Shown: positions 9,055 to 62,917 of the stretch, piece by piece
Layout: each line of letters starts with the position of its first letter
Numbering within the stretch: the first letter of the stretch is position 1
Source of the DNA: a virus
Reading direction: 5' to 3' (one strand)
Length of the DNA stretch: 64,000 nucleotides
Virus record (IMG/VR): IMGVR_UViG_3300028831_000505
Span: 1-64,000 of that record
Notes under the pieces: generated by a model
Told to the model about the DNA's origin: nothing
Seen by the model: the letters and a program-made list of their open reading frames with translations, nothing else
The model's database searches: none
Position numbers and translations under genes: made by a program

Positions 9055-9657
9055 ATGGATTTGCGCATGAGACGTTCGCGCCGCCGCAACCGTGCACCCT
9101 GGGTGAAGGTTGACATATGGGAACCGACCTGGAGCCCTGAGATCGTCGGTTGGTCCGTCAACTTCTACAACAGAAACAAGTGGCGCTTCGACAGCAAGGA
9201 CCGCTGTGATCCGGTCATGACGGTCGACGACCTGATGCAGGAAGCCTACATCATCTTTGAGCGCGTCCGCGCCAGCTACCCGCGCGTGATTGACCCGCGC
9301 CATTTCATGGCCCTTTACAAAACCTCCATCCAGAACGACATGACCGACAGGTCGCGGCTTGAGCGCAAACGGGACGCAACCATTGAGGATTTGGGGGAGG
9401 ATGCCTCCTCCGCGCTCGCGGGTCGTATGGACGACGAGAGTGGTTATCTGGCTGTGCTCCTCAGTGAGATGCCCCGAGAGGTTCAGTTGCTGATCGCCGG
9501 CATGCAAAGGGATGACGTTGCGGTGGCACTGCGCGAGCCCTATGAGAAGGACGAAGCCGGTGTCAGGAGCGAAACCTTTGGAGAACGTCTGTGCCGTCTC
9601 ATTGGCATTGACCCGGCAACCCGGCCGCTCCAACAGTTGCGGGAATTGCTTGCGTAA
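9055..9657 (+). CDS. Possible sigma-factor-like protein, 200 aa
   Basis: Residues from about 55 to 105 read DDLMQEAYIIFERVR, then FMALYKTSIQNDMTDRSR. This resembles sigma70 region 2 (DLxQEAxxxxxR, and the later helix ending in Arg residues before the linker). A second helical section near the C-terminus could be a region 4 relic, but the helix-turn-helix is not clear. A basic N-terminus (MRRSRRRNR) precedes it. Starts at 9022 and 9067 are also possible; TTGGG precedes 9055. If correct, it would redirect host RNA polymerase to phage promoters. The assignment rests on pattern only and could be another helical protein. Confidence 0.55.
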   Translation: MDLRMRRSRRRNRAPWVKVDIWEPTWSPEIVGWSVNFYNRNKWRFDSKDRCDPVMTVDDLMQEAYIIFERVRASYPRVIDPRHFMALYKTSIQNDMTDRSRLERKRDATIEDLGEDASSALAGRMDDESGYLAVLLSEMPREVQLLIAGMQRDDVAVALREPYEKDEAGVRSETFGERLCRLIGIDPATRPLQQLRELLA

Positions 9658-13781: not shown

Positions 13782-13815
13782 GGTGCCTTTGGGCGACTGA
13801 GCAAGGAATTTGACC

Positions 13816-14361
13816 ATGCTAACCTTGGGGCGTGACTGGACGGAGTTTTTTCGGCTAAGCAAACGCGAATACTTTGCTGACTTCTTTATTACCCCTCCGG
13901 TTACGGCCCTCATGGTTGGCCTTTCCCTGTACAAGGGGGCCAGCTTGCGGTGGCCATTATTCTTTGGCCTCGGAGTGTTGGCGTGGACCCTTTACGAATA
14001 CCTCATGCATCGCTGGGGGCTGCACCAAGTGTGGGGGCTGCGTGTGCTGCATGCCATGCACCACAAGAACGACAGGGATTACATTGCCACGCACCCGGCC
14101 ATAACCGTGGCCGCTTATATCGGCTTCTGGTTCATGTTTGGTGTGACCAGTAGCGCCTTCGCGGCCGGCTTCTCGGCGGGCTACGTGATCTACGCAGCGA
14201 TGCACACGCTGTACCACTACACCACCATCCTGCCCGGCGATTGGTTGTTCGGGCTCAAGCGGCGTCACGCGTTGCACCACCGGTTCGAAACTTACAATTT
14301 TGGTGTCTCAACCCCGCTCTGGGACATCGTTTTTCAAACCTCCTACCAACAGGGAAAATGA
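13816..14361 (+). CDS. Fatty acid hydroxylase / sterol desaturase superfamily membrane enzyme
   Basis: This is a membrane-bound di-iron oxygenase-like protein. In the 181-aa product four histidine clusters are visible: HRWGLH (65-70), HAMHH (79-83), HTLYH (130-134) and HALHH (151-155). That is the hallmark of the fatty acid hydroxylase superfamily (sterol desaturases, FA 2-hydroxylases, carotenoid hydroxylases). Hydrophobic segments surround them (about 25-60 and 95-128). The length is short but enough for the catalytic core. The substrate is unknown; hydroxylation of host membrane lipids is the simplest inference. The start is ATG 13816 after GCAAGGAATT; a TTG two codons earlier is less likely. 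It sits between clamp and polymerase genes, so it is probably expressed early, as an auxiliary metabolic gene. Confidence 0.85.
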   Translation: MLTLGRDWTEFFRLSKREYFADFFITPPVTALMVGLSLYKGASLRWPLFFGLGVLAWTLYEYLMHRWGLHQVWGLRVLHAMHHKNDRDYIATHPAITVAAYIGFWFMFGVTSSAFAAGFSAGYVIYAAMHTLYHYTTILPGDWLFGLKRRHALHHRFETYNFGVSTPLWDIVFQTSYQQGK

Positions 14362-14364
14362 AGC

Positions 14365-14568
14365 ATGGCCGCTTTGCGCGACCCCTACGATGGGGAGCCA
14401 TTCTATTGTGTGACGTGCAGCGCAGGCTATGGCGAGTACGCCGCCTGCGAGGACGTTGCGTGTCAACTCGAGTCGAAGGCTGCGGCAGAAGCCCGTAAGG
14501 CCAAGCGCAGGCCGATCGGGTCCGATCTGCAACGCGCGTTGCAGACACAACGAGAGAAGGAAAGGTGA
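14365..14568 (+). CDS. Small Cys-rich protein, 67 aa
   Basis: The protein has CVTC and, 12-18 residues later, CEDVAC, which together could hold a zinc ion. The rest is a basic helix (AAAEARKAKRRP). The gene starts four bases after the hydroxylase gene ends and shares its last base with the next ATG. Function unknown. Confidence 0.65.
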   Translation: MAALRDPYDGEPFYCVTCSAGYGEYAACEDVACQLESKAAAEARKAKRRPIGSDLQRALQTQREKER

Positions 14569-14813
14569 TGGGCCGCTTTGAAGGAAGTATCGCCACAGGC
14601 TTGACCGCCACGGGGACACGGACCTACGTCAACGCGTCGAATACGGACCACCCCAACCTGATACTGCGGGACCTCATAACCCTCGAAATGAGGGCCAACG
14701 CGCTTGGCCTCTACCCGGCTGCCCGTGCGTTGAACAACGCGAAGAACGCGATTGGCTGGCAACTGGCCGGCGACATTGGGAAGGCCGACGCCGCATCCAC
14801 GCACCGGCTCTGA
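14568..14813 (+). CDS. Small hypothetical protein, 81 aa
   Basis: ATG 14568 is preceded by GAGAAGGAAAGG; a GTG three bases earlier is an alternative. The protein is helical in its second half (LRDLITLEMRANALGLYPAARALNNAKNAIGW). No family recognised. Confidence 0.6.
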   Translation: MGRFEGSIATGLTATGTRTYVNASNTDHPNLILRDLITLEMRANALGLYPAARALNNAKNAIGWQLAGDIGKADAASTHRL

Positions 14814-15317: not shown

Positions 15318-18005
15318 ATGGGTTTTTTGTTTACCACGCCTCAGCAGCAGCCCAAGGGGCCGCCCAAGCAGCGCACGGGCCGCGCTGCGGGCGGCGTGGG
15401 GCCTAAAACGGCCGCCAGTGCCGCCACCTTGAACCGGCTGGGGTGTTCAGCCTGCCCGCTCAACGACGCCAAGGTCAATAGTCCCAAGATGCCGGCCTTC
15501 CTTCCTGTTAGGCCGTGTGACATTTACTTCCTTGCCGAGGCTCCGGGCGAAACAGAGGACCGTGAAGGGGAACCCTTAATTGGGAAGTCCGGCCAGTTGC
15601 TGCGCAGCCTCATCCCCAAGCGCTATGAAAATACCTGTGCTTACGACAACGTTGTGCGGACCCGCCCGCCCAAGAACCGCGACCCCACCTGGGTTGAGGT
15701 CGAGTGTTGCCGAGGTCACCACACCAAAAGCATCGAGAAGGCCAAACCCCGGTTAGTAGTTGGCCTGGGGAAATTCTCCCTCAACGCCGTGCTAGGCTCC
15801 ATGGATATGCAAGGCCTGCGCGGTCGTATGTTCGCGGTCAAGTTTGGCAACCACTCCTGTTGGTTCATGCCAACCTATCACCCGGCCTTTATCCTGCGGC
15901 AGGCCTATGACGACAAGAAGCCCCTGCTCTCGCGGATGGGCCATTGCTTCAAGATGGACATCAGGCGGGCCTTTGATGTGCTGGACGGGCTCAAGCCCCC
16001 GCGCATCCAAACAGAGGCAAGCATCAGGGCCGACATCCTGACCTTTGACGGGTCCGAACCCGGCCACTTCGAGCGGTTAATGAACTTGCTCATCGTAGCG
16101 CAGCAGGTCCCCGAAAAATCAGTCGACTACGAGACCCAAGGCTTACGCCCGTACAGGAAGGACTCCGCAGTCCTGACCTGTGCAATCAGCTATGACGACC
16201 CGGACGCGGGCGAGGCGCATTTCTCATTTGCCCTGGATCACCCCAAGGCCAAGTGGACCAAGGTGCAACGCAAGGCTATTGGGGCAAAGCTGCTCGAAAT
16301 TCTTAGCGACGACACCTTCAAGGTTGCCCACAACGTACCGTTTGAGGTCGAGTGGTCCATCTTCATGTATGGCGCCGCCCATGTGCGTCACGGGGCTTGG
16401 GACTGCACAATGATGCAGGCTCACTTCCTGGACGAGCGCCGGGGCAAGCAGTGGCGTGACGATGACCGCCGAGCGGCCTATCAGGACCTTGACTTCCTCT
16501 GCCGCCAGTATTTTGGTGTGGGCTACAAGTCGTTCTTTAAGCTGAACAAAAAGAACATGGCCGGCGCTGATCTGGGCGAAACCCTCATCTATAACGCTGC
16601 CGATACCAAGGTCGCATTGTGGCTGCACCGCGTGCAAGTAGCCCTGCTGAAACGGCGTGGCCTCTATGACGCTTACCTCGACTCGGTCCAGCGCCAGCCT
16701 GCCACGGCGTTGATGCAACACTTTGGAATACCCGTAAATCAGAAGGCCGTGGTACGCAACGGGAAACGTCTCAAGGCTGAGATTGAAGAGATCGAGGATG
16801 AGATAAACGACCTCAGGGTGGTGAAGGATTACACCCGGGACTATGGGGAGTTTAATCCGGGGTCGAACCCTGACGTTTTGAAGGTGTTCAAGGATTACCT
16901 CAAGCGGTCCGAGATAAAGGTTCCCAAGAAGTACCACAAGCCGGGGGAGAGTGAGTTTGAGTACTCGGTCGACGAGGCGGTGCTCAAGGAAATAGATCAT
17001 CCCCTGGCCGAGCTGGTTCTTGCCTTTCGTAACCGCAGCAAATTGAAGTCCACCTATTGCGACGGGCTGGACATGCGTAACTACGACAACCCGCAGTACA
17101 AGAAACGGGTGGTCATCCACCGTGACGGGCTGGCTCACAGTTCGTTCAACATGACGTTCACTGAAACCGGCCGCACCAGTTCTGACGATCCCAACCTTCA
17201 AAACTTCCCCAAACACAAAGACGCGTGGATACGCAACGAGATCTGGGCGCCCCCCGGCTATGTGCTGGTGGCGGCGGACTACAAGCAGCTTGAATTCTGC
17301 GCCGCGGCCTGTTGCAGCGGGGATAAAGTGCTGATCGACGCCGTTTGGAGCGGCTACGACGTGCACATGGATTGGGCTGAGCGGCTATCGGCGCGCTACC
17401 CGCAGGCGGTGGGCGGGCTCAAGTTCCGCAAGGACAAGGACGTAATGAAGGCGCTGCGCCAAAAGGTGAAAAACAAGCTGGTGTTCCCAGCTATCTTTGG
17501 CGCTCAGGACGACTCCATTGCGGGCTACCTCGATATGCCTGAGGACGTCATTGGCAAAGTCATGAACGACTTCTGGAGCATCTTCCACGGGATCAAGACG
17601 TGGCAAGATGAGATGATGCAAGGCTACTACGATGAGGGCTACGTCAGCACCATGAATGGGCGGTTGCGCTGGTACCCGTTGAACCGCAACCAAGCGATCA
17701 ACCACCCAGTGCAGGGCTCGGCCTGCGAAATCGTCTGCGACGGCATGACGCGCCTCTCGAAGCAGGCTGTGGAAACCGAGCAGTGGCACATCCACCCGCG
17801 CATGAACATTCACGACGACCTGTCGTTCTTGATACCCGACGACAACAACCGGGTGTTTGAGGAGTCGGTTGAGACCATCTACAAAGGAATGTTGAGTTGC
17901 CCCTACAAGTGGATCAACGTGCCGCTGGCCGTTGAGTTATCGGCCGGCGTTCACTGGGCAGAAATGGAAGCGTTTGGAAACTTCTCAAGCCACAAGGATC
18001 TCTGA
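15318..18005 (+). CDS. Family A DNA polymerase with N-terminal UDG-like domain
   Basis: This is the phage replicative DNA polymerase, 895 aa. Residues about 35-230 resemble family 4/5 uracil-DNA glycosylases: CSAC (43-46), AEAPGETEDREG (73-84), NVVRTRPPKNRDP (111-123) and YHPAFILR (187-194). The Fe-S cysteine expected in NVVxC is Thr115, while Cys130/131 remain. A 3'-5' exonuclease follows (VDYET 269-273, HNVPFEVEW 338-346, a late Asp near 429). The polymerase part has motif A DYKQLEF (654-660), motif B RQKVKNKLVFPAIFGA (714-729), HPVQGSACE (796-804) and motif C IHDD (831-834). It therefore looks active for synthesis and proofreading. Whether the UDG-like domain binds or excises uracil is unclear, given the altered metal ligand. 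Confidence 0.93.
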   Translation: MGFLFTTPQQQPKGPPKQRTGRAAGGVGPKTAASAATLNRLGCSACPLNDAKVNSPKMPAFLPVRPCDIYFLAEAPGETEDREGEPLIGKSGQLLRSLIPKRYENTCAYDNVVRTRPPKNRDPTWVEVECCRGHHTKSIEKAKPRLVVGLGKFSLNAVLGSMDMQGLRGRMFAVKFGNHSCWFMPTYHPAFILRQAYDDKKPLLSRMGHCFKMDIRRAFDVLDGLKPPRIQTEASIRADILTFDGSEPGHFERLMNLLIVAQQVPEKSVDYETQGLRPYRKDSAVLTCAISYDDPDAGEAHFSFALDHPKAKWTKVQRKAIGAKLLEILSDDTFKVAHNVPFEVEWSIFMYGAAHVRHGAWDCTMMQAHFLDERRGKQWRDDDRRAAYQDLDFLCRQYFGVGYKSFFKLNKKNMAGADLGETLIYNAADTKVALWLHRVQVALLKRRGLYDAYLDSVQRQPATALMQHFGIPVNQKAVVRNGKRLKAEIEEIEDEINDLRVVKDYTRDYGEFNPGSNPDVLKVFKDYLKRSEIKVPKKYHKPGESEFEYSVDEAVLKEIDHPLAELVLAFRNRSKLKSTYCDGLDMRNYDNPQYKKRVVIHRDGLAHSSFNMTFTETGRTSSDDPNLQNFPKHKDAWIRNEIWAPPGYVLVAADYKQLEFCAAACCSGDKVLIDAVWSGYDVHMDWAERLSARYPQAVGGLKFRKDKDVMKALRQKVKNKLVFPAIFGAQDDSIAGYLDMPEDVIGKVMNDFWSIFHGIKTWQDEMMQGYYDEGYVSTMNGRLRWYPLNRNQAINHPVQGSACEIVCDGMTRLSKQAVETEQWHIHPRMNIHDDLSFLIPDDNNRVFEESVETIYKGMLSCPYKWINVPLAVELSAGVHWAEMEAFGNFSSHKDL

Positions 18006-28597: not shown

Positions 28598-28974
28598 CCG
28601 AAAAGATTGTGCTCTATTTTGGTTGCCGCGATGGGATTGGTCACTACCTGCAAACCGAGAGCGCGACAATTTGGGGGGTGCCGCATGGTATTGGTTTTCC
28701 ATGGAACCTGGGTCATCTAGACGGCGGCCTCTTAAAAAACGGAAATCATCCGGATGTCTACGATGGCCGAGTCTTTTGGACCTGTGGCGGGACCCCACTC
28801 TGGCTGGCATTCTTTTGGTGGGATAATTCAGTTGACCACCGAAGTGGATCAAACTCTGGTTTCTATATTCGTGGGTTTGATGTCGTTGGAAGACAGGTGG
28901 CACTGGATTATGCCGGTACGGTCTTCCCCAAGGTAGTGGCCCGGCAGCGCTACCCCTTGGCGCTCCAGCCGTAA
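28594..28974 (+). CDS. Conserved phage hypothetical protein, 126 aa
   Basis: The gene overlaps the SbcC-like stop by four bases. It contains CGGTPLWLAFFWWDNSVDHR (63-82) and SNSGFYIRGF, a pattern I recall from many phage proteins with no assigned function. It is the last gene of the left plus-strand block; the minus-strand block ends seven bases later. Confidence 0.7.
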   Translation: MTEKIVLYFGCRDGIGHYLQTESATIWGVPHGIGFPWNLGHLDGGLLKNGNHPDVYDGRVFWTCGGTPLWLAFFWWDNSVDHRSGSNSGFYIRGFDVVGRQVALDYAGTVFPKVVARQRYPLALQP

Positions 28975-29485: not shown

Positions 29486-29735
29486 TGTCACTGACCTTGC
29501 CTTGGCGCAACCGCTCAGCCAATGCGGCGAAGGCATCCGAGCGGCGCTTCATGATTGATGCCGTGTGTACTAGGGACGCAGCCTCATTGGATAGTGCGTG
29601 GGACGCCTCGCGCAGTTCCTCCGGTGCCGGGTTGTCACTCTTCCCCGGCGCAGTCACAACAATTGAGGGCGTTGGCGCCGCCAGGGGCGGCCGGGTGCCA
29701 AACAGATTCCGCAGTGGCCCTATATTCAGTCTCAT
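29460..29735 (-). CDS. Small hypothetical protein, 91 aa
   Basis: The N-terminus is proline-rich and the C-terminal half helical (LREASHALSNEAASLVHTA, ALAERLRQGKVSDNEVRQI). It overlaps both neighbours, which supports its being a gene in a compact cluster. It could act with the adjacent membrane proteins. Function unknown. Confidence 0.55.
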   Translation of the reverse strand: MRLNIGPLRNLFGTRPPLAAPTPSIVVTAPGKSDNPAPEELREASHALSNEAASLVHTASIMKRRSDAFAALAERLRQGKVSDNEVRQILA

Positions 29736-30130
29736 CTATCGACTTTGGTTTTTGCGGCCCGGTGCGTGTCGTCACTCGTACCGCCAAAGCGCAAAAGAAG
29801 TAAGTCCCGAACAGCACTAATAATGTTCTGGGTAGCCCCGGTTGCAGTTACGTTCGCATTGACGGATGTGGTTGCGTCTGCGAGCGCCTTGATTACCCTC
29901 TCAAGAAGTTCCTTTTGCGATGCCTTGTTGGAGTCCTGCTCGGCTTTCAGCTCGGTACGCAGCTTGGCATTCTCAGCCTCGGCCTCGGAGCGCAGCCTGT
30001 TCACAAACCAGATGCCAAAGGCCAGGACCGCGATGACCCCGGTCCGCGTATCGATAAAAAAGTTCAACACCCACTTCAAGTCGAACGGGTCCACCTGAGC
30101 GAGAACAATTGCCGTAGCGTTGCCAAACAT
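29732..30130 (-). CDS. Membrane-anchored coiled-coil protein, spanin-like candidate
   Basis: Residues about 23-43 form one membrane helix, followed by a Glu/Lys/Ala-rich coiled coil (about 48-80) and a helical tail. A short N-terminal part, one anchor and a long periplasmic coiled coil is the plan of an inner-membrane spanin. The lipoprotein gene at 30512-30946 could be its outer-membrane partner, but no sequence family is recognised and a holin role is also possible. Confidence 0.55.
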   Translation of the reverse strand: MFGNATAIVLAQVDPFDLKWVLNFFIDTRTGVIAVLAFGIWFVNRLRSEAEAENAKLRTELKAEQDSNKASQKELLERVIKALADATTSVNANVTATGATQNIISAVRDLLLLRFGGTSDDTHRAAKTKVDR

Positions 30131-30209
30131 TCCCCTTCCCTAGCCCGGTTCGTGAACAGGGATTTCGTTAGCATGACCCCGTCCAAATAACAACTCTCAA
30201 CAGGTACCC
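30131..30209. promoter_or_regulatory. Divergent intergenic region in the lysis cluster
   Basis: These 79 bases separate a minus-strand gene from the plus-strand GcrA-like gene, so the plus-strand promoter must lie here or further right in the minus-strand genes. I see no convincing -35/-10 pair, only a moderately AT-rich section (ATTTCGTTAGCATGACC and CCAAATAACAACTC). Confidence 0.25.
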
Positions 30210-30515
30210 ATGCGGCATGACAACAGCGCGGGTACTGGGAGGGGCCGCAACGCCCTAGAACTATTTGATATCCCCAGCAGCTATCGATGCCACTGGGTCT
30301 ACGGCGACATCAGGCTCAAGACGGCCTACTGGTGTGGGCAGCCCGTAGCACAGCCGCTGAAAAGCGGGCACTGCGATGGGCCATGGTGTGCGAAGCACCG
30401 AGCGGTAGTTTACCCACAGTCAGCCGGGGCGCCCCTCGCACCACGGGCGTCCAACCGTTTCAGGCTGGACGCCCGTGTGTATCCCAAAGTGAAAAGGAAG
30501 CGCTTCCGGCTTTAG
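30210..30515 (+). CDS. GcrA C-terminal-domain-like protein, 101 aa
   Basis: The middle of the protein matches the C-terminal domain of GcrA, an alphaproteobacterial cell cycle regulator. Visible residues are C27-x-W29 (RCHW), G32-D33, C42-G43 (YWCG), then GPWC (57-60), H63 and a following Val/Tyr. In GcrA the same order is C-x-WPxGD, FCG, GPYC, xxH. The GcrA N-terminal DNA-binding helix-turn-helix is absent. In Caulobacter the C-terminal domain binds sigma70 region 2. A free-standing copy could thus occupy or redirect the host sigma factor. The gene is the only plus-strand gene in the lysis/tail half, and ends KRKRFRL. Its stop overlaps that of the convergent lipoprotein gene. Confidence 0.7.
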   Translation: MRHDNSAGTGRGRNALELFDIPSSYRCHWVYGDIRLKTAYWCGQPVAQPLKSGHCDGPWCAKHRAVVYPQSAGAPLAPRASNRFRLDARVYPKVKRKRFRL

Positions 30516-30946
30516 CCGGTCTTCTTGGGGTCAGCCGGCGGCTTCTTGCTGGGCAGCGGCTTCTTGCGGAAAAAGTCCTTGAACTTGTTCCATTTGCCGG
30601 GCTTCGGCGCCACGACAGGGGCCTTGCCCGTTGCCGGGGCTGGCGTGACCGTGGGTGCGTTTTGCGGTGCCGCCGCTGGGTCGGCCTGTACCGGGGCCGT
30701 TTGCTGTACGGCTGGCGGGCTCTGCTTGGTCTGACCGGGCAATTTGGGGTGAACGTACCCCGGCCTGAGCGCGCGGCGGCGTGGGGTTGCCGCAGGCGGT
30801 GTGGCCTGAGGCGCGGCCGTGGCCGCAGGCGCGACGCTGTACAGGGCCTTCTTCATTGCCGCCTCGAAGCTTGTGGCGTCATGGCCACAGCCCGCAACAC
30901 ACAGGGCCAGCACACAGGCCCCCAACACTGACATGATCCGTTTCAT
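30512..30946 (-). CDS. Pro/Ala-rich lipoprotein, possible outer-membrane spanin
   Basis: The start at 30946 gives MKRIMSVLGACVLALCVAGC, an apparent lipoprotein signal with the lipobox ending at C20. The mature 124 residues are rich in Pro, Ala, Thr and Lys, lack order, and end basic (FKDFFRKKPLPSKKP). Small proline-rich lipoproteins beside a holin are often o-spanins, which bridge to an inner-membrane partner in the last lysis step. Upstream in-frame codons belong to the holin gene in another frame and were excluded. Confidence 0.65.
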   Translation of the reverse strand: MKRIMSVLGACVLALCVAGCGHDATSFEAAMKKALYSVAPAATAAPQATPPAATPRRRALRPGYVHPKLPGQTKQSPPAVQQTAPVQADPAAAPQNAPTVTPAPATGKAPVVAPKPGKWNKFKDFFRKKPLPSKKPPADPKKTG

Positions 30947-54695: not shown

Positions 54696-55277
54696 ATGTC
54701 AACAAGGATCACAAGGATGGATGAAAAGTTGGACCTTCCCACCCGCATTCGAATCCTTCTTGCTCAAGGACCAGCCAAAGACGACTGGACTTCCCAGCTT
54801 GAGGAGATCTTTGGATGCGCCAAGGGTTTCCTTGCAGACCCCAAACTGTCTGAGGTTGAGGTCTTCCAAAACCTCAGCAGGCCAGAGTGGGGGCAATTCA
54901 CCGTCAGCCAAAACGACGAGGGGCTAACAGCCACGTGGCTCCGCACTGACGGCGGGCCGCCTGTTGCTGTGCAGTACCTACGCGAGACTAGCCGGGACGG
55001 CGCCGTGTTCGTTGTTCTACAGGCCCTATTGGCTCACGCTTTACAGGAGCAGGGTCTGGGAACTTACGTCGATGTGAGGACGCCGAACTGGCGACGGGCA
55101 AGGGTCGTGGTTAACGGCAAAGAAATGGAGGGGGTTGTGCGGGCGTGCGCGGTGACTGGATTTTGCGAAGTTATAACACCGAAGTCGAAGGTTGGACCCG
55201 ACAACAGGCTGGCCACACAAAAACTACGGGGCTTGGTGACCATCACCTTCGATAAGGTCGACAGGACCTTCTTCTGA
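54696..55277 (+). CDS. Hypothetical protein, 193 aa, alone on the plus strand
   Basis: The reading starts at ATG 54696, or at ATG 54717 (MDEKLDLP), which has ACAAGG upstream. The protein is alpha/beta with LTATWLRTDGGPPVAVQYL and a helical section (VFVVLQALLAHALQEQGLG). It ends FDKVDRTFF. Its 3' end overlaps the end of the convergent gene at 55224 by 54 bases. No family recognised. The position interrupts the usual portal-protease order. Confidence 0.6.
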   Translation: MSTRITRMDEKLDLPTRIRILLAQGPAKDDWTSQLEEIFGCAKGFLADPKLSEVEVFQNLSRPEWGQFTVSQNDEGLTATWLRTDGGPPVAVQYLRETSRDGAVFVVLQALLAHALQEQGLGTYVDVRTPNWRRARVVVNGKEMEGVVRACAVTGFCEVITPKSKVGPDNRLATQKLRGLVTITFDKVDRTFF

Positions 55278-55793
55278 AAGCCACTCGGCCGTTGGTAGGC
55301 CGAACGTTTCGGCCGTCCATCCGGAGAACGACCTGAGGCATTTGGCAAGCTCAGCGGCTTGGTCGTTCCACGCCTTCCTATAATGCTGTGAAGCCGTCCA
55401 TGGAACCCCACGCACAAAGTGCCCGCCGTCAGTAGTCATCGGGATGCCACAGGCGACAATCCTCGTTGCCTTAGCCCTGAACCGCGCCACGTTGACGGCG
55501 AGCAGCCCCGAGGAGCCGCCCGTATGTGGAATCTGTTTGAAGGGCAGATTGAAATGGCGCTTCCGGTGGGCGGCTGTCCATAACACAGGGTCATGGTAGT
55601 CGTTCTTGCGCCGTGCTTCCAGCCATCGGTTCATCTTCTCAGGGTGCATGGTGCACCAGTGGTCAACCGCGGGCAGATTGATTGCAATATCGTTTGCGGC
55701 CACCACCACATCGGGTTTGAATAGCTTGGTGGCCAGCTCTATTTCTTTCCAGACACACTCAGCACCGCCAATCACCAGTGCTTTCATCGCCAA
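55224..55793 (-). CDS. Rossmann-like protein of the glycosylation cassette, 189 aa
   Basis: The opening KALVIGGAECVWKEIELA (4-21) looks like a nucleotide-binding Rossmann strand-loop-helix, followed by VVVAANDIAI and DHWCTMHPEKM. Such a layout occurs in small sugar- or nucleotide-related phage proteins near glycosyltransferases. The exact activity is unknown. It is the last gene of the minus-strand cassette that starts at 58772, and overlaps the next by ten bases. Confidence 0.6.
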   Translation of the reverse strand: MAMKALVIGGAECVWKEIELATKLFKPDVVVAANDIAINLPAVDHWCTMHPEKMNRWLEARRKNDYHDPVLWTAAHRKRHFNLPFKQIPHTGGSSGLLAVNVARFRAKATRIVACGIPMTTDGGHFVRGVPWTASQHYRKAWNDQAAELAKCLRSFSGWTAETFGLPTAEWLSEEGPVDLIEGDGHQAP

Positions 55794-56491
55794 TTCTCCT
55801 TAACCCATGGATAGTTATCCGCCACCCCAGGCGTCCACGGATCAAACTTGCCGTGAAAGAACACAGCGCGGGCATTTGAAGGCAAGGCTGTCCGACCAAG
55901 GCGAATAAAATAGTTACGGAAGCTGTAGATTCCGTCAGCCTCGCCCCACGTGGCCTCCTTTGGGCCAAGGACATGGCTGATCCACGCCTGATCCGAACCA
56001 ACTATCCCGGCCAAGGCCGTTATGCCGGGGGACTGCCTTGGGTCGAACTCGTCCCACACCCGTTGCCGGGCGCCCGGGGTGAGCAACATCATGGAGCCGT
56101 TGTAGAAGGTATTCTTGGCCGTGTCGCCCCAAGCAATGAAGTCTTCCTTGCGTGAAGCCAACGGGGTCATATCCTTCACAATGACCGAGTCGAGGTCCAG
56201 TGACAGAATGCGGTTGCCAAAGATAGGAATGACCTCGGACGAGAACATGCGCAGGCGCCGGTAGCAGTTGGGTTTGTTGTTTGGGCGGGAGAGCGGGGCA
56301 ATCTCGTCCCACAGCGGTACTACCTCAACCCGGGGATCAATCCCTACAGGGTCATCGGTGGCGCAGATGAAGCGGTGTGGCATGTGGAGGTGTCGTTCGA
56401 CCATGTTCCGCAGCACATTCACATGCCGCGCCGTGAACACCGACCGGTAACCGGGCTTGGCCTGCCACTTCCACGTAACTACGGACAGCAT
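55784..56491 (-). CDS. Glycosyltransferase, GT-A type (GT8-like), 235 aa
   Basis: It has the metal-binding D-x-D in RILSLDLDSVIV (D99, D101), preceded by a Rossmann-like N-terminus and PNNKPNCYRRLRMF. Later, NGSMMLLTPG (130-139) and VFFHGKFDPW match GT8-like enzymes, which transfer a hexose from a nucleotide sugar. Donor and acceptor are unknown. Confidence 0.75.
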   Translation of the reverse strand: MLSVVTWKWQAKPGYRSVFTARHVNVLRNMVERHLHMPHRFICATDDPVGIDPRVEVVPLWDEIAPLSRPNNKPNCYRRLRMFSSEVIPIFGNRILSLDLDSVIVKDMTPLASRKEDFIAWGDTAKNTFYNGSMMLLTPGARQRVWDEFDPRQSPGITALAGIVGSDQAWISHVLGPKEATWGEADGIYSFRNYFIRLGRTALPSNARAVFFHGKFDPWTPGVADNYPWVKENWR

Positions 56492-57381
56492 TGAGGCTCT
56501 CCAAAACTTCCCGCAAGGATCTCGTCCATCAGGACGTCAAAGATGAAGGCTCCATTTCTGCCAGCCGGCAGAAAACGGCAGCCATAATAAGCGGGCAGCG
56601 TCCAGCCAACGGTAGTCTCAAGCAGGCGCCACGGTCCGCCCTCCCCGTCACGCACAAGGTCAATGCCGGCCCAGGTCAAATTGTGCTCCACAGCTATCTG
56701 TTCGCCAAATGCAAGGGCGCTCAGCGCCTCTTCCTCTGGAAGGACAATTGGCAAGGTCAGGCCTGACCCCGACGCCATGGGTCGATCCGGCCGGTTGCCA
56801 CGGCGCATCATGAGGCGTCCGGTTTTGCCAATGAACAGAATCCTAAAGTCGTTGTCGTTTCCAGGACAGAACTTTTGCCAGATCAAATAGTCCTTCTGCC
56901 TGAGGCCATACTGACCCTTGATGCCGCCCTTATGGAACACATTGTGGGCTTCGCCAGCCGCCTCACGTGCCGTTTTGATCAGCCGCACATTGCGTGAGCC
57001 AGAACCAATCGAGGTTTTGGATATGAATGGGTACTGAGCCGTTTTGGCGTGGGCCATGGCGTCATCGTAGTTCTCAAACACTCTTGTCTCGGGCATCCAC
57101 CGCTTAAAAACCTTTGCCTGACGAAGTTTGTCATCGTAAAGGCGTGCCGAAGCGGCGTCCGGGATCACCACAAACTCCGGGCGCGCGGCGAATCTAGCCA
57201 CAAGATCCTTATCCTTCCTGCGGCGGCCGGGGCTATTGTGCATATGGATAAAAATGTACCCACTTTCCCCTTCAAGTGGGTCGTCCCTTTTGAAAAGCTT
57301 GGCATTCCACCCACGTTGACAAGCCAGGGTATAGAGCAGCAGGCCCCAACCACTCTCGTCGTTGTAGACAAACAGCCTCAT
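56479..57381 (-). CDS. ATP-grasp ligase-like protein (RimK type), 300 aa
   Basis: The start at 57381 (MRLFVYNDESGWG) was chosen because it overlaps the upstream gene by four bases; an earlier in-frame codon lies inside that gene. ATP-grasp features are FISKTSIGSGSRNVRL (119-134), a glycine-rich loop with the Lys, then IWQKF (167-171), FRILFIGKTGRLMMRR (179-194) and AGIDLVRDGEGGPWRLLETT (238-257). ATP-grasp enzymes form amide or ester bonds through an acyl-phosphate. The last Asn of the usual (E/D)xN is replaced by Thr. Substrates unknown; it may join an amino acid or a peptide to a sugar or protein. Confidence 0.75.
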   Translation of the reverse strand: MRLFVYNDESGWGLLLYTLACQRGWNAKLFKRDDPLEGESGYIFIHMHNSPGRRRKDKDLVARFAARPEFVVIPDAASARLYDDKLRQAKVFKRWMPETRVFENYDDAMAHAKTAQYPFISKTSIGSGSRNVRLIKTAREAAGEAHNVFHKGGIKGQYGLRQKDYLIWQKFCPGNDNDFRILFIGKTGRLMMRRGNRPDRPMASGSGLTLPIVLPEEEALSALAFGEQIAVEHNLTWAGIDLVRDGEGGPWRLLETTVGWTLPAYYGCRFLPAGRNGAFIFDVLMDEILAGSFGEPQCCP

Positions 57382-58103
57382 GCCTGCGCAGCCCAGTCGA
57401 TCTCGCTCCACGGGAAGGTAAGGTTATGAGGAGTGGGGTCTTTCGCGATGAGAGCACGTGCTTTTTGCACCCCCTCGCGGTCCATCTGCTGCTTGCGCAA
57501 GTAATTTGTTGTGGAAGCGTCAGGTACGACTTCGCGACCAACGCGAATGACCGGGTAGCGGAGCATGATGGGCTCACCCGTTCCACGGACCACACGGTCA
57601 CGAAATTCCCCATCTGAGCCATAAAATCCTGAGAATCGCTCATCGTAACCCCCGATTCGCTGGAAAACGGCCCTTTCCATGAGCCAAGTGTTGGGATGAG
57701 GCTTGTAACTATGCATCTCTGGGGCCGAGACGCGTTGGAATCGGAAGGCTCGACCAGCCTCCAGCTCGTGAGAAAGCACCGCTTGAGCCGTGCGTTCTGG
57801 CACCAAATGATCAATATCGGTCATCAGAATCCAGTCAGTTCGGGCCTTTTCAGCCCCTAGATTCCGGCAAAACAGCCAATTCCAGCGCACATCCACGCCA
57901 CATCTGAACAGCCGTAAGCTGCCAAAGCCTGGATTGCTGGTAATTCTGGCTATCTGATCGGGGGAACCGTCATCGACCACGATGAGGTCCCAGCAACCCA
58001 GCAGCCCCGGCCCCCACGCCCGCATATGGTCAAGCTGCGCGGTGAGCATTCCAGGATTTCGATAGTACGGGAGGATCAAGGTAACCCGGCGACGCGCTTC
58101 CAT
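57378..58103 (-). CDS. Family 2 glycosyltransferase, 241 aa
   Basis: The protein has the GT2 core: LILPYYRNPGM (9-19), LIVVDDGSPDQ (40-50) and WILMTDIDHLV (90-100), where D95-x-D97 is the metal site. GGYDERFSGFYGSDGEFRDR corresponds to the acceptor-side region. It probably transfers a sugar from a UDP- or GDP-sugar. It overlaps the ATP-grasp gene by four bases. Confidence 0.85.
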   Translation of the reverse strand: MEARRRVTLILPYYRNPGMLTAQLDHMRAWGPGLLGCWDLIVVDDGSPDQIARITSNPGFGSLRLFRCGVDVRWNWLFCRNLGAEKARTDWILMTDIDHLVPERTAQAVLSHELEAGRAFRFQRVSAPEMHSYKPHPNTWLMERAVFQRIGGYDERFSGFYGSDGEFRDRVVRGTGEPIMLRYPVIRVGREVVPDASTTNYLRKQQMDREGVQKARALIAKDPTPHNLTFPWSEIDWAAQA

Positions 58104-58112
58104 GTGTCCTGC

Positions 58113-58772
58113 CTAAACCTGTTCCCCGTCCCTTCGACGAAGAAACATGCCCATATGCCCTAGATCTATGGCATGCACCCCCGCCCGCGCAAGTTCCCAA
58201 GCCAAAACCGTGGCGGTAGCCCCGAGACACAGTATGACCCGCCGTTTCTCGGGGCGCAGGCGCGCGACCAGCGCGTTATACTCAACATAGGCGTGTCTGA
58301 CCGGGGCAATGACCTCTTCAACGCTGGCGGCGCCCGGCATGCGTTCAGGCAACAACGATTTGCCGCCCCCGCGCACCAGCACCACGTCAAGGCCGCGCCA
58401 GAGGCTGCGCACCTTCTCCCAATAGGGCGGGGTATCAATCCACGGGGCTGAGTCCGGCCGGCTCACAAATGACGACCCGTAGATCCACGTCGGGTCGTAG
58501 AGGTTCGTGTATTTTGGTGCCGCGTATTGCCCCCAGAACACGTGCTTGGGCGTTGTGCTCATGACGTTGGGGATGCAAACCAGACATTCCTTGGACCTCG
58601 ATTTGAGGATAACACGCAGCTTCTCGCAAAGCTCAGGGTGAAAGTCCTGTGACTTGGCCGAGTGCCCCAACGCAAGCTTTAGTTCTCCATCGCCGTAGCG
58701 CGACATCGACTGCCCAGCCAGCACCATATCCAGCGTTTGCCTCTCGTCGATAACGTTGGGGTAAGCTGGCAT
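58113..58772 (-). CDS. GT-D-fold glycosyltransferase-like protein, 219 aa
   Basis: The signature SMSRYGDGELKLALG (22-36) with R25-Y-G-D-G-E matches the GT-D family (formerly DUF1792), found in bacterial glycan synthesis such as the third glucosyltransferase of serine-rich repeat proteins. A segment VFWGQYAAPKYTNLYDP follows. It is the first gene of the cassette; AGGAAA precedes its ATG on the minus strand. Confidence 0.75.
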   Translation of the reverse strand: MPAYPNVIDERQTLDMVLAGQSMSRYGDGELKLALGHSAKSQDFHPELCEKLRVILKSRSKECLVCIPNVMSTTPKHVFWGQYAAPKYTNLYDPTWIYGSSFVSRPDSAPWIDTPPYWEKVRSLWRGLDVVLVRGGGKSLLPERMPGAASVEEVIAPVRHAYVEYNALVARLRPEKRRVILCLGATATVLAWELARAGVHAIDLGHMGMFLRRRDGEQV

Positions 58773-62335: not shown

Positions 62336-62475
62336 CCAAGGAAGCGGATAAGGATAAGGGGAAAAAAGGAAGACGGCGCCGACCGCCCATGTGCGAAGGG
62401 TGTGGGGTCAACCGGGCCGATCCGCCCAGCCCCTTGTGCGTCGGCTGCCAAGCCTACGCCGAGCATCAACAATAG
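62332..62475 (+). CDS. Small zinc-knuckle-like protein, 47 aa
   Basis: The product starts with a Lys/Arg-rich stretch (KEADKDKGKKGRRRRPP) and ends with CEGCG and LCVGC, two Cys pairs 16 residues apart that would bind one zinc. It may bind nucleic acid. A strong purine-rich stretch precedes the next gene. Confidence 0.55.
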   Translation: MTKEADKDKGKKGRRRRPPMCEGCGVNRADPPSPLCVGCQAYAEHQQ

Positions 62476-62485
62476 GGAGACTGCG

Positions 62486-62917
62486 GTGAACGAGGCGTGG
62501 TGGGATCAGATGGCGGCGGCGCTGCCGGTTATCCAGTCCGTCGTGGTGGATGGGGAGCGGTACAATGTCAGCCACGGAATGATCCGCTTCCTTGGCCGCT
62601 ACTACGAGGTAATTGAGGCCAACGGGGTCATCCTTACCATGAAGGCTGCGCCTCGCGGGATTGAACCCTTGCCCAACGAGACTTGGGATATATGGGCTGA
62701 GTGGAACTACCAAGGAGACACGCGCTACGCGCATGAGCCGTCGGTTTTCCCCGACCGTCCGGCGGGGCGCTGCGAACGCTTTGACGAGGCCTTTCCGACA
62801 AGTTGGCCACAGGCACACCCACGCAACATAACCATCGGGGGCATCGTCCGTGGCGGCCTTGCCGCAGTATGGTTTTGGCTCGTCATGCTTGAGATCGGGA
62901 AGGCAGTTTTTAGGTGA
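62486..62917 (+). CDS. Hypothetical protein with C-terminal hydrophobic segment, 143 aa
   Basis: I chose GTG 62486 because AGGGAGACTGC precedes it; longer versions lack a site. Residues about 32-55 (RFLGRYYEVIEANGVILTMK) resemble the gene at 60148. The C-terminus has a hydrophobic helix (GGLAAVWFWLVMLEIGKA). Function unknown. Confidence 0.6.
   Translation: MNEAWWDQMAAALPVIQSVVVDGERYNVSHGMIRFLGRYYEVIEANGVILTMKAAPRGIEPLPNETWDIWAEWNYQGDTRYAHEPSVFPDRPAGRCERFDEAFPTSWPQAHPRNITIGGIVRGGLAAVWFWLVMLEIGKAVFR

Follow-up and report, generated by a model that had tools for sequence, protein, structure and literature searches.

The SID-only gene and its surroundings

The window analysed here comprises 64,000 nucleotides (positions 1 to 64,000) of the IMG/VR virus record IMGVR_UViG_3300028831_000505, which contains 64,075 bases. 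At 30210-30515 on the plus strand it carries a gene whose 101-codon product (MRHDNSAGTGRGRNALELFDIPSSYRCHWVYGDIRLKTAYWCGQPVAQPLKSGHCDGPWCAKHRAVVYPQSAGAPLAPRASNRFRLDARVYPKVKRKRFRL) resembles the sigma-interaction domain (SID) of the cell-cycle activator GcrA (Table 1). An in-frame TGA lies about 10 codons 5' of the ATG, so there is no in-frame space for an N-terminal domain. As originally predicted, the gene stands alone on its strand: it is the sole plus-strand gene amid minus-strand genes and sits inside a 381-nt gap, flanked below by a gene for a membrane protein (29732-30130) and above by one for a lipobox protein that weakly matches Rz-like spanins (30512-30946), both on the minus strand. 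The surrounding module is lysis-like and includes a GTA-type holin that scores slightly under the Pfam cut-off. Its remaining gaps do not exceed about 80 nt, and the 381-nt gap by itself therefore favours the presence of a gene. Codon usage of the SID open reading frame (ORF) is the best of the six frames yet poor for this phage (-0.16, compared with 0.10 at the 5th percentile of true frames).

Table 1. Features of the window and SID-only proteins of other phages
Feature	Position or source	Strand	Basis or description
SID-only gene, 101 aa	30210-30515	+	Exact ORF, ATG to TAG; profile match
SID core, residues 25-70	30282-30419	+	HMM alignment, SID alignments, peak model confidence
Weak possible Shine-Dalgarno core AGG	30202-30204	+	6-8 nt 5' of ATG; putative, from sequence
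Intergenic gap between divergent minus-strand gene and SID gene	30131-30209		79 nt
Strong hairpin in 3' part of SID ORF	30442-30477		15-nt arms, 93% complementary
Terminator-like hairpin at SID-gene stop codon	30506-30519	+	Followed by TCTTCTT
Possible phage sigma-like factor	9055-9657	+	tblastn to phage proteins
SID-only protein	Komagataeibacter phage phiKM1		68 aa, unannotated; start overlaps preceding stop
SID-only protein	Microcystis phages Mwe-JY25/JY07		75 aa, "hypothetical"
SID-only protein, weak	Rhizobium phage RHph_N65		74 aa

The isolated position had also been taken to mean that the gene has its own promoter, a step that the data do not bear out. A promoter scan of the 79-nt upstream gap found zero promoter-like sites, and read-through into the SID gene is equally possible because the early plus-strand genes end at 28974. 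The lysis-type neighbourhood points to no particular timing of expression. The strong hairpin within the ORF also lies about 35 nt beyond the stop of the minus-strand gene 30512-30946; the RNA-fold score of the segment around it (30425-30520) is pronounced (z -4.38), and a U-run is absent on both sides of the hairpin. Terminator-like sites such as that at the SID-gene stop codon are not significantly more numerous than in shuffled sequences.

The product of 9055-9657 has homologues (E 6e-14 to 1e-8) in Edwardsiella phage ZHS and in Vibrio MAR10-like phages, and some of those from Vibrio phages are deposited as RNA polymerase sigma factor; no Pfam sigma domain was found in any of the three proteins tested on this question. 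The same phages, Vibrio MAR10-like phages and Edwardsiella phage ZHS, provide the closest matches to a DNA polymerase A (15318-18005, plus strand) that is fused to an N-terminal uracil-DNA-glycosylase-like domain. A fatty acid hydroxylase family protein (13810-14361, plus strand; Pfam E 2e-17) is unusual phage cargo, and a series of genes at 55224-58772 (minus strand) resembles, as judged by eye, glycosyltransferase and sugar-related proteins. Neither a tail-protein search nor megablast recovered kin of this phage.

Homology to the GcrA sigma-interaction domain

The core pattern of the 101-aa protein is C27-x-W29-x2-G32-D33...C42-G43...C60-x2-H63. All eight signature residues of the GcrA C-terminal domain are present in order, so the Cys/His/Gly/Asp pattern on which the original prediction was built is real. 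Against 24-28 aligned GcrA SIDs, C27, W29, G32, C42, C60 and H63 never vary, and D33 and G43 hardly do; conservation of the Cys/His residues (C27, C42, C60 and H63) in relatives, a point on which the prediction had been open to challenge, was thus upheld.

A SID profile was built from 57 GcrA proteins of public phages, viral contigs and alphaproteobacterial genomes, with the query left out; as a positive control, the SID model matched in 237 of 385 alphaproteobacterial genomes. This profile ranked the window ORF first of 1,198 (29.6 bits, E 2.4e-8), and the top score among 20,000 shuffles was 13.8 bits. Two of the 57 profile loci had been picked through likeness to the query, and on their removal the window ORF scored 18.0 bits (E 9.7e-5). 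A query-independent profile, whose set included the SID-only phiKM1 and JY25 proteins (both found by GcrA consensus), gave the window ORF the same first rank among the 1,198 (23.7 bits, E 1.6e-6; top of 20,000 shuffles, 12.5 bits). When searched against the PDB, a profile of the query and 28 SIDs found GcrA at E 3e-24, a value that tests the family and not the query.

Searches with the single sequence were empty in Pfam, NCBIfam, PHROGs and PDB; PF07750 had no match above the Pfam cut-off in the protein or the record, and a viral scan with the protein alone returned no match. tblastn against public phages gave insignificant matches only, mostly to unrelated Klebsiella and Acinetobacter phages, with one match at E 4 that led to a Rhizobium phage GcrA. 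A 68-aa match in a bacterial genome (E 1.5e-6) was rejected as an out-of-frame ORF in an apparent chromosomal gene, without the Cys/His pattern, which indicates that BLAST E-values are optimistic for such composition. A weak SID-like ORF at 14258-14623 (minus strand) was dismissed as chance. Taken by sequence comparison, the product of 30210-30515 is homologous to the GcrA SID, and its family placement is well supported.

The predicted structure points to the same domain. For residues 21-70, taken in blocks of ten, an AlphaFold model computed with 24 GcrA SIDs in the alignment has pLDDT values of 77-88; when the sequence was modelled by itself, pLDDT was 43.6 and the result unusable. A Foldseek search of 350,542 PDB chains placed three GcrA chains at the top, 5yix_B (probability 1.00, TM 0.79 on target), 7ye2_G (probability 1.00, TM 0.68) and 7ye1_G (probability 0.97), and the first non-GcrA chain followed at probability 0.01. 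The Foldseek E-values are modest (0.02 at best), which is to be expected for a domain of this size. In the viral library BFVD, the five best matches are named GcrA, one of them just 77 aa long. A different fold, which would have told against the original prediction, was not obtained, although the model cannot count as independent evidence of homology, since GcrA SIDs were part of its alignment. The assignment of a GcrA SID fold to the 101-aa protein is a prediction, and it is well supported.

The absence of the DNA-binding part was also correctly anticipated. A model of the GcrA DNA-binding domain (DBD) found none in the ORF and none in the 64,075-base record, whereas its two positive controls, phage Mwe-JY13 and the genome of a bacterium with GcrA, were both matched. 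The ORF at 62358-62486 bears a weak DBD likeness (E 0.013) that was dismissed as chance. The longer ORFs showed neither a terminase nor a portal gene; the record may therefore be incomplete, and a DBD may be encoded beyond it. As far as the record shows, the SID stands alone.

Caulobacter crescentus GcrA (PF07750; 5yix, 7ye1 and 7ye2) shares with the window protein the signature C-x-W-x2-GD...CG...C-x2-H and the predicted SID fold. The window protein differs in having neither the N-terminal methylated-DNA-binding domain nor the linker, in missing both prolines of the canonical WP-x-GDP motif, in an insert of about 7 residues before the third Cys and in a basic C-terminal tail. The missing prolines and the insert mean that the sigma contact might be changed or abolished.

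SID-only and two-domain GcrA proteins in phages

The two-domain architecture is the rule: DBD and SID occur together in 57 of the 57 profile GcrA proteins and in eight further phage GcrA proteins. Full-length phage GcrA proteins, such as phiCbK gp222 and its relatives and those of Brevundimonas phage Bajun and Rhizobium phage RHph_X2_24, have phage-encoded GcrA-family SIDs like the window protein; those proteins have both domains, whereas the window protein has the SID alone. Such full-length homologues have been discussed as assisting host replication genes (PMC3556154), and phage GcrA homologues in general as aiding host replication or cell-cycle progress (PMC3556154, PMC6630229, PMC9437464).

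A free SID had been put forward as a new kind of phage regulator. A search of other phages, suggested at the same time, sustains the SID-only form and removes its uniqueness, as SID-only proteins also occur in phiKM1, in Mwe-JY25/JY07 and, weakly, in RHph_N65 (Table 1). GcrA is the best Pfam match of these proteins (E 1.9e-3 to 1.5e-4, under the cut-off), the matches are confined to SID positions, and the DBD model found nothing in the phiKM1, JY25 and RHph_N65 records. They share with the window protein a SID without a DBD and are shorter (68-75 aa). In phiKM1 and JY25 the start of the SID-only gene overlaps the stop of the preceding gene, whereas the window gene is isolated within a minus-strand module. 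The window protein, phiKM1 and loci L027, L074 and L075 have a phage-type SID whose core, C-x-W-[IV]-x-GD, lacks the proline of the canonical WP; L027 and L074 retain the DBD. Judged from these sequences, the SID-only form is a phage GcrA variant that is rare yet recurs. No description of a SID-only GcrA-family protein was found in the literature searched.

A second divergent type of phage GcrA (L070 and L078-L085), all with a DBD, has C-x-WPLW in place of C-x-WPIGD. Separately, GcrA-family genes occur in phages deposited with cyanobacterial hosts (L004, L068, L070, L071 and L073; Synechococcus, Microcystis and Pseudanabaena). GcrA-family genes are typical of Alphaproteobacteria, so the true hosts of these phages may be co-cultured Alphaproteobacteria.

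Possible actions on host transcription

GcrA binds sigma region 2 through its SID and methylated promoters through its N-terminal domain (reviewed in PMC7403470). A SID alone should then bind the holoenzyme without selecting these promoters. We tentatively regard a decoy for host sigma70 as the most likely action of the protein, with sigma70 binding, competition, timing and the host all inferred. Made while the phage infects a probably alphaproteobacterial host, the protein would take up the GcrA site of the sigma70 holoenzyme with no link to methylated promoters and compete with host GcrA for sigma70 region 2. Host transcription would be uncoupled from GcrA/CcrM cell-cycle control, and polymerase would be freed for phage promoters, perhaps for the phage-encoded sigma-like factor. 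Speculatively, a host-sigma decoy and a phage sigma (9055-9657) would form a coherent takeover. GANTC is the CcrM site, and it is depleted in the window (1-64000), with 103 occurrences against an expectation of about 224, the lowest value among eight permutations tested; this depletion is compatible with a CcrM-bearing host and is no proof of one.

Rather unlikely is a second action on the same target, in which the SID alone would bind region 2 as a remodeler without DNA contact, altering open-complex formation globally or favouring phage promoters. Crl provides the precedent, as it attaches to sigma region 2 and needs no DNA contact to activate (PMC6917491), and all of the region-2 activators reviewed strengthen the sigma/RNAP interaction (PMC7403470). 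The window protein would likewise be small and bind region 2 without contacting DNA, although Crl is a cellular activator that targets sigma-S and we claim no relation to it in sequence or fold. Activation by GcrA, RbpA and GrgA, unlike that by Crl, is described as requiring their additional DNA-contacting domains (PMC6917491), which argues against activation by a SID that lacks this part of GcrA.

It is unlikely that the SID fold has been reused for a partner other than host sigma70, such as a different host protein or the possible sigma-like factor encoded by the phage itself (9055-9657). The divergent sequence, missing prolines and insert would suit such a change, as would the possible sigma-like factor of this phage; however, the zinc-ligand-like residues are all retained, as are W29 and the G-D pair, and the sigma-like factor is without Pfam confirmation.

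Quite improbable is a decaying, functionless remnant left after a full-length phage GcrA lost its DBD. Weak codon usage, the common two-domain form of phage GcrA and the DBD still present in the related phage-type proteins L027 and L074 speak for decay, but the frame is intact with start and stop, all signature residues are kept, no DBD fragment adjoins the gene, and SID-only genes recur in other phages with a tight stop/start overlap with the preceding gene. A spurious ORF with a chance likeness to the SID, as the internal hairpin, weak coding score and empty single-sequence family searches might suggest, is highly improbable given profile E-values of 1.6e-6 to 2.4e-8, well beyond 20,000 shuffles, eight of eight signature residues in order, and a frame that occupies an otherwise unusual gap.

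A decoy for host sigma70 would resemble AsiA, gp39 and P7 in being a small phage protein, and those proteins seize host sigma or RNA polymerase. They act on sigma region 4 or the beta flap (PMC7403470), whereas the window protein would target region 2 and has its origin in a host-type regulator. More generally, and with greater doubt than for the decoy itself, SID-only proteins may represent a class of phage proteins that arose from a host cell-cycle activator minus its DBD and that obstruct or commandeer host transcription by way of sigma70 region 2, uncoupling polymerase from GcrA/CcrM.

Short phage GcrA-family proteins escape annotation, as the window protein is missed by Pfam, NCBIfam and PHROGs alike. 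GcrA couples promoter methylation to sigma70 in Alphaproteobacteria, and a natural SID-only protein splits these two functions. If active, such a protein would be a phage tool against sigma region 2 and a ready reagent for testing the SID by itself.
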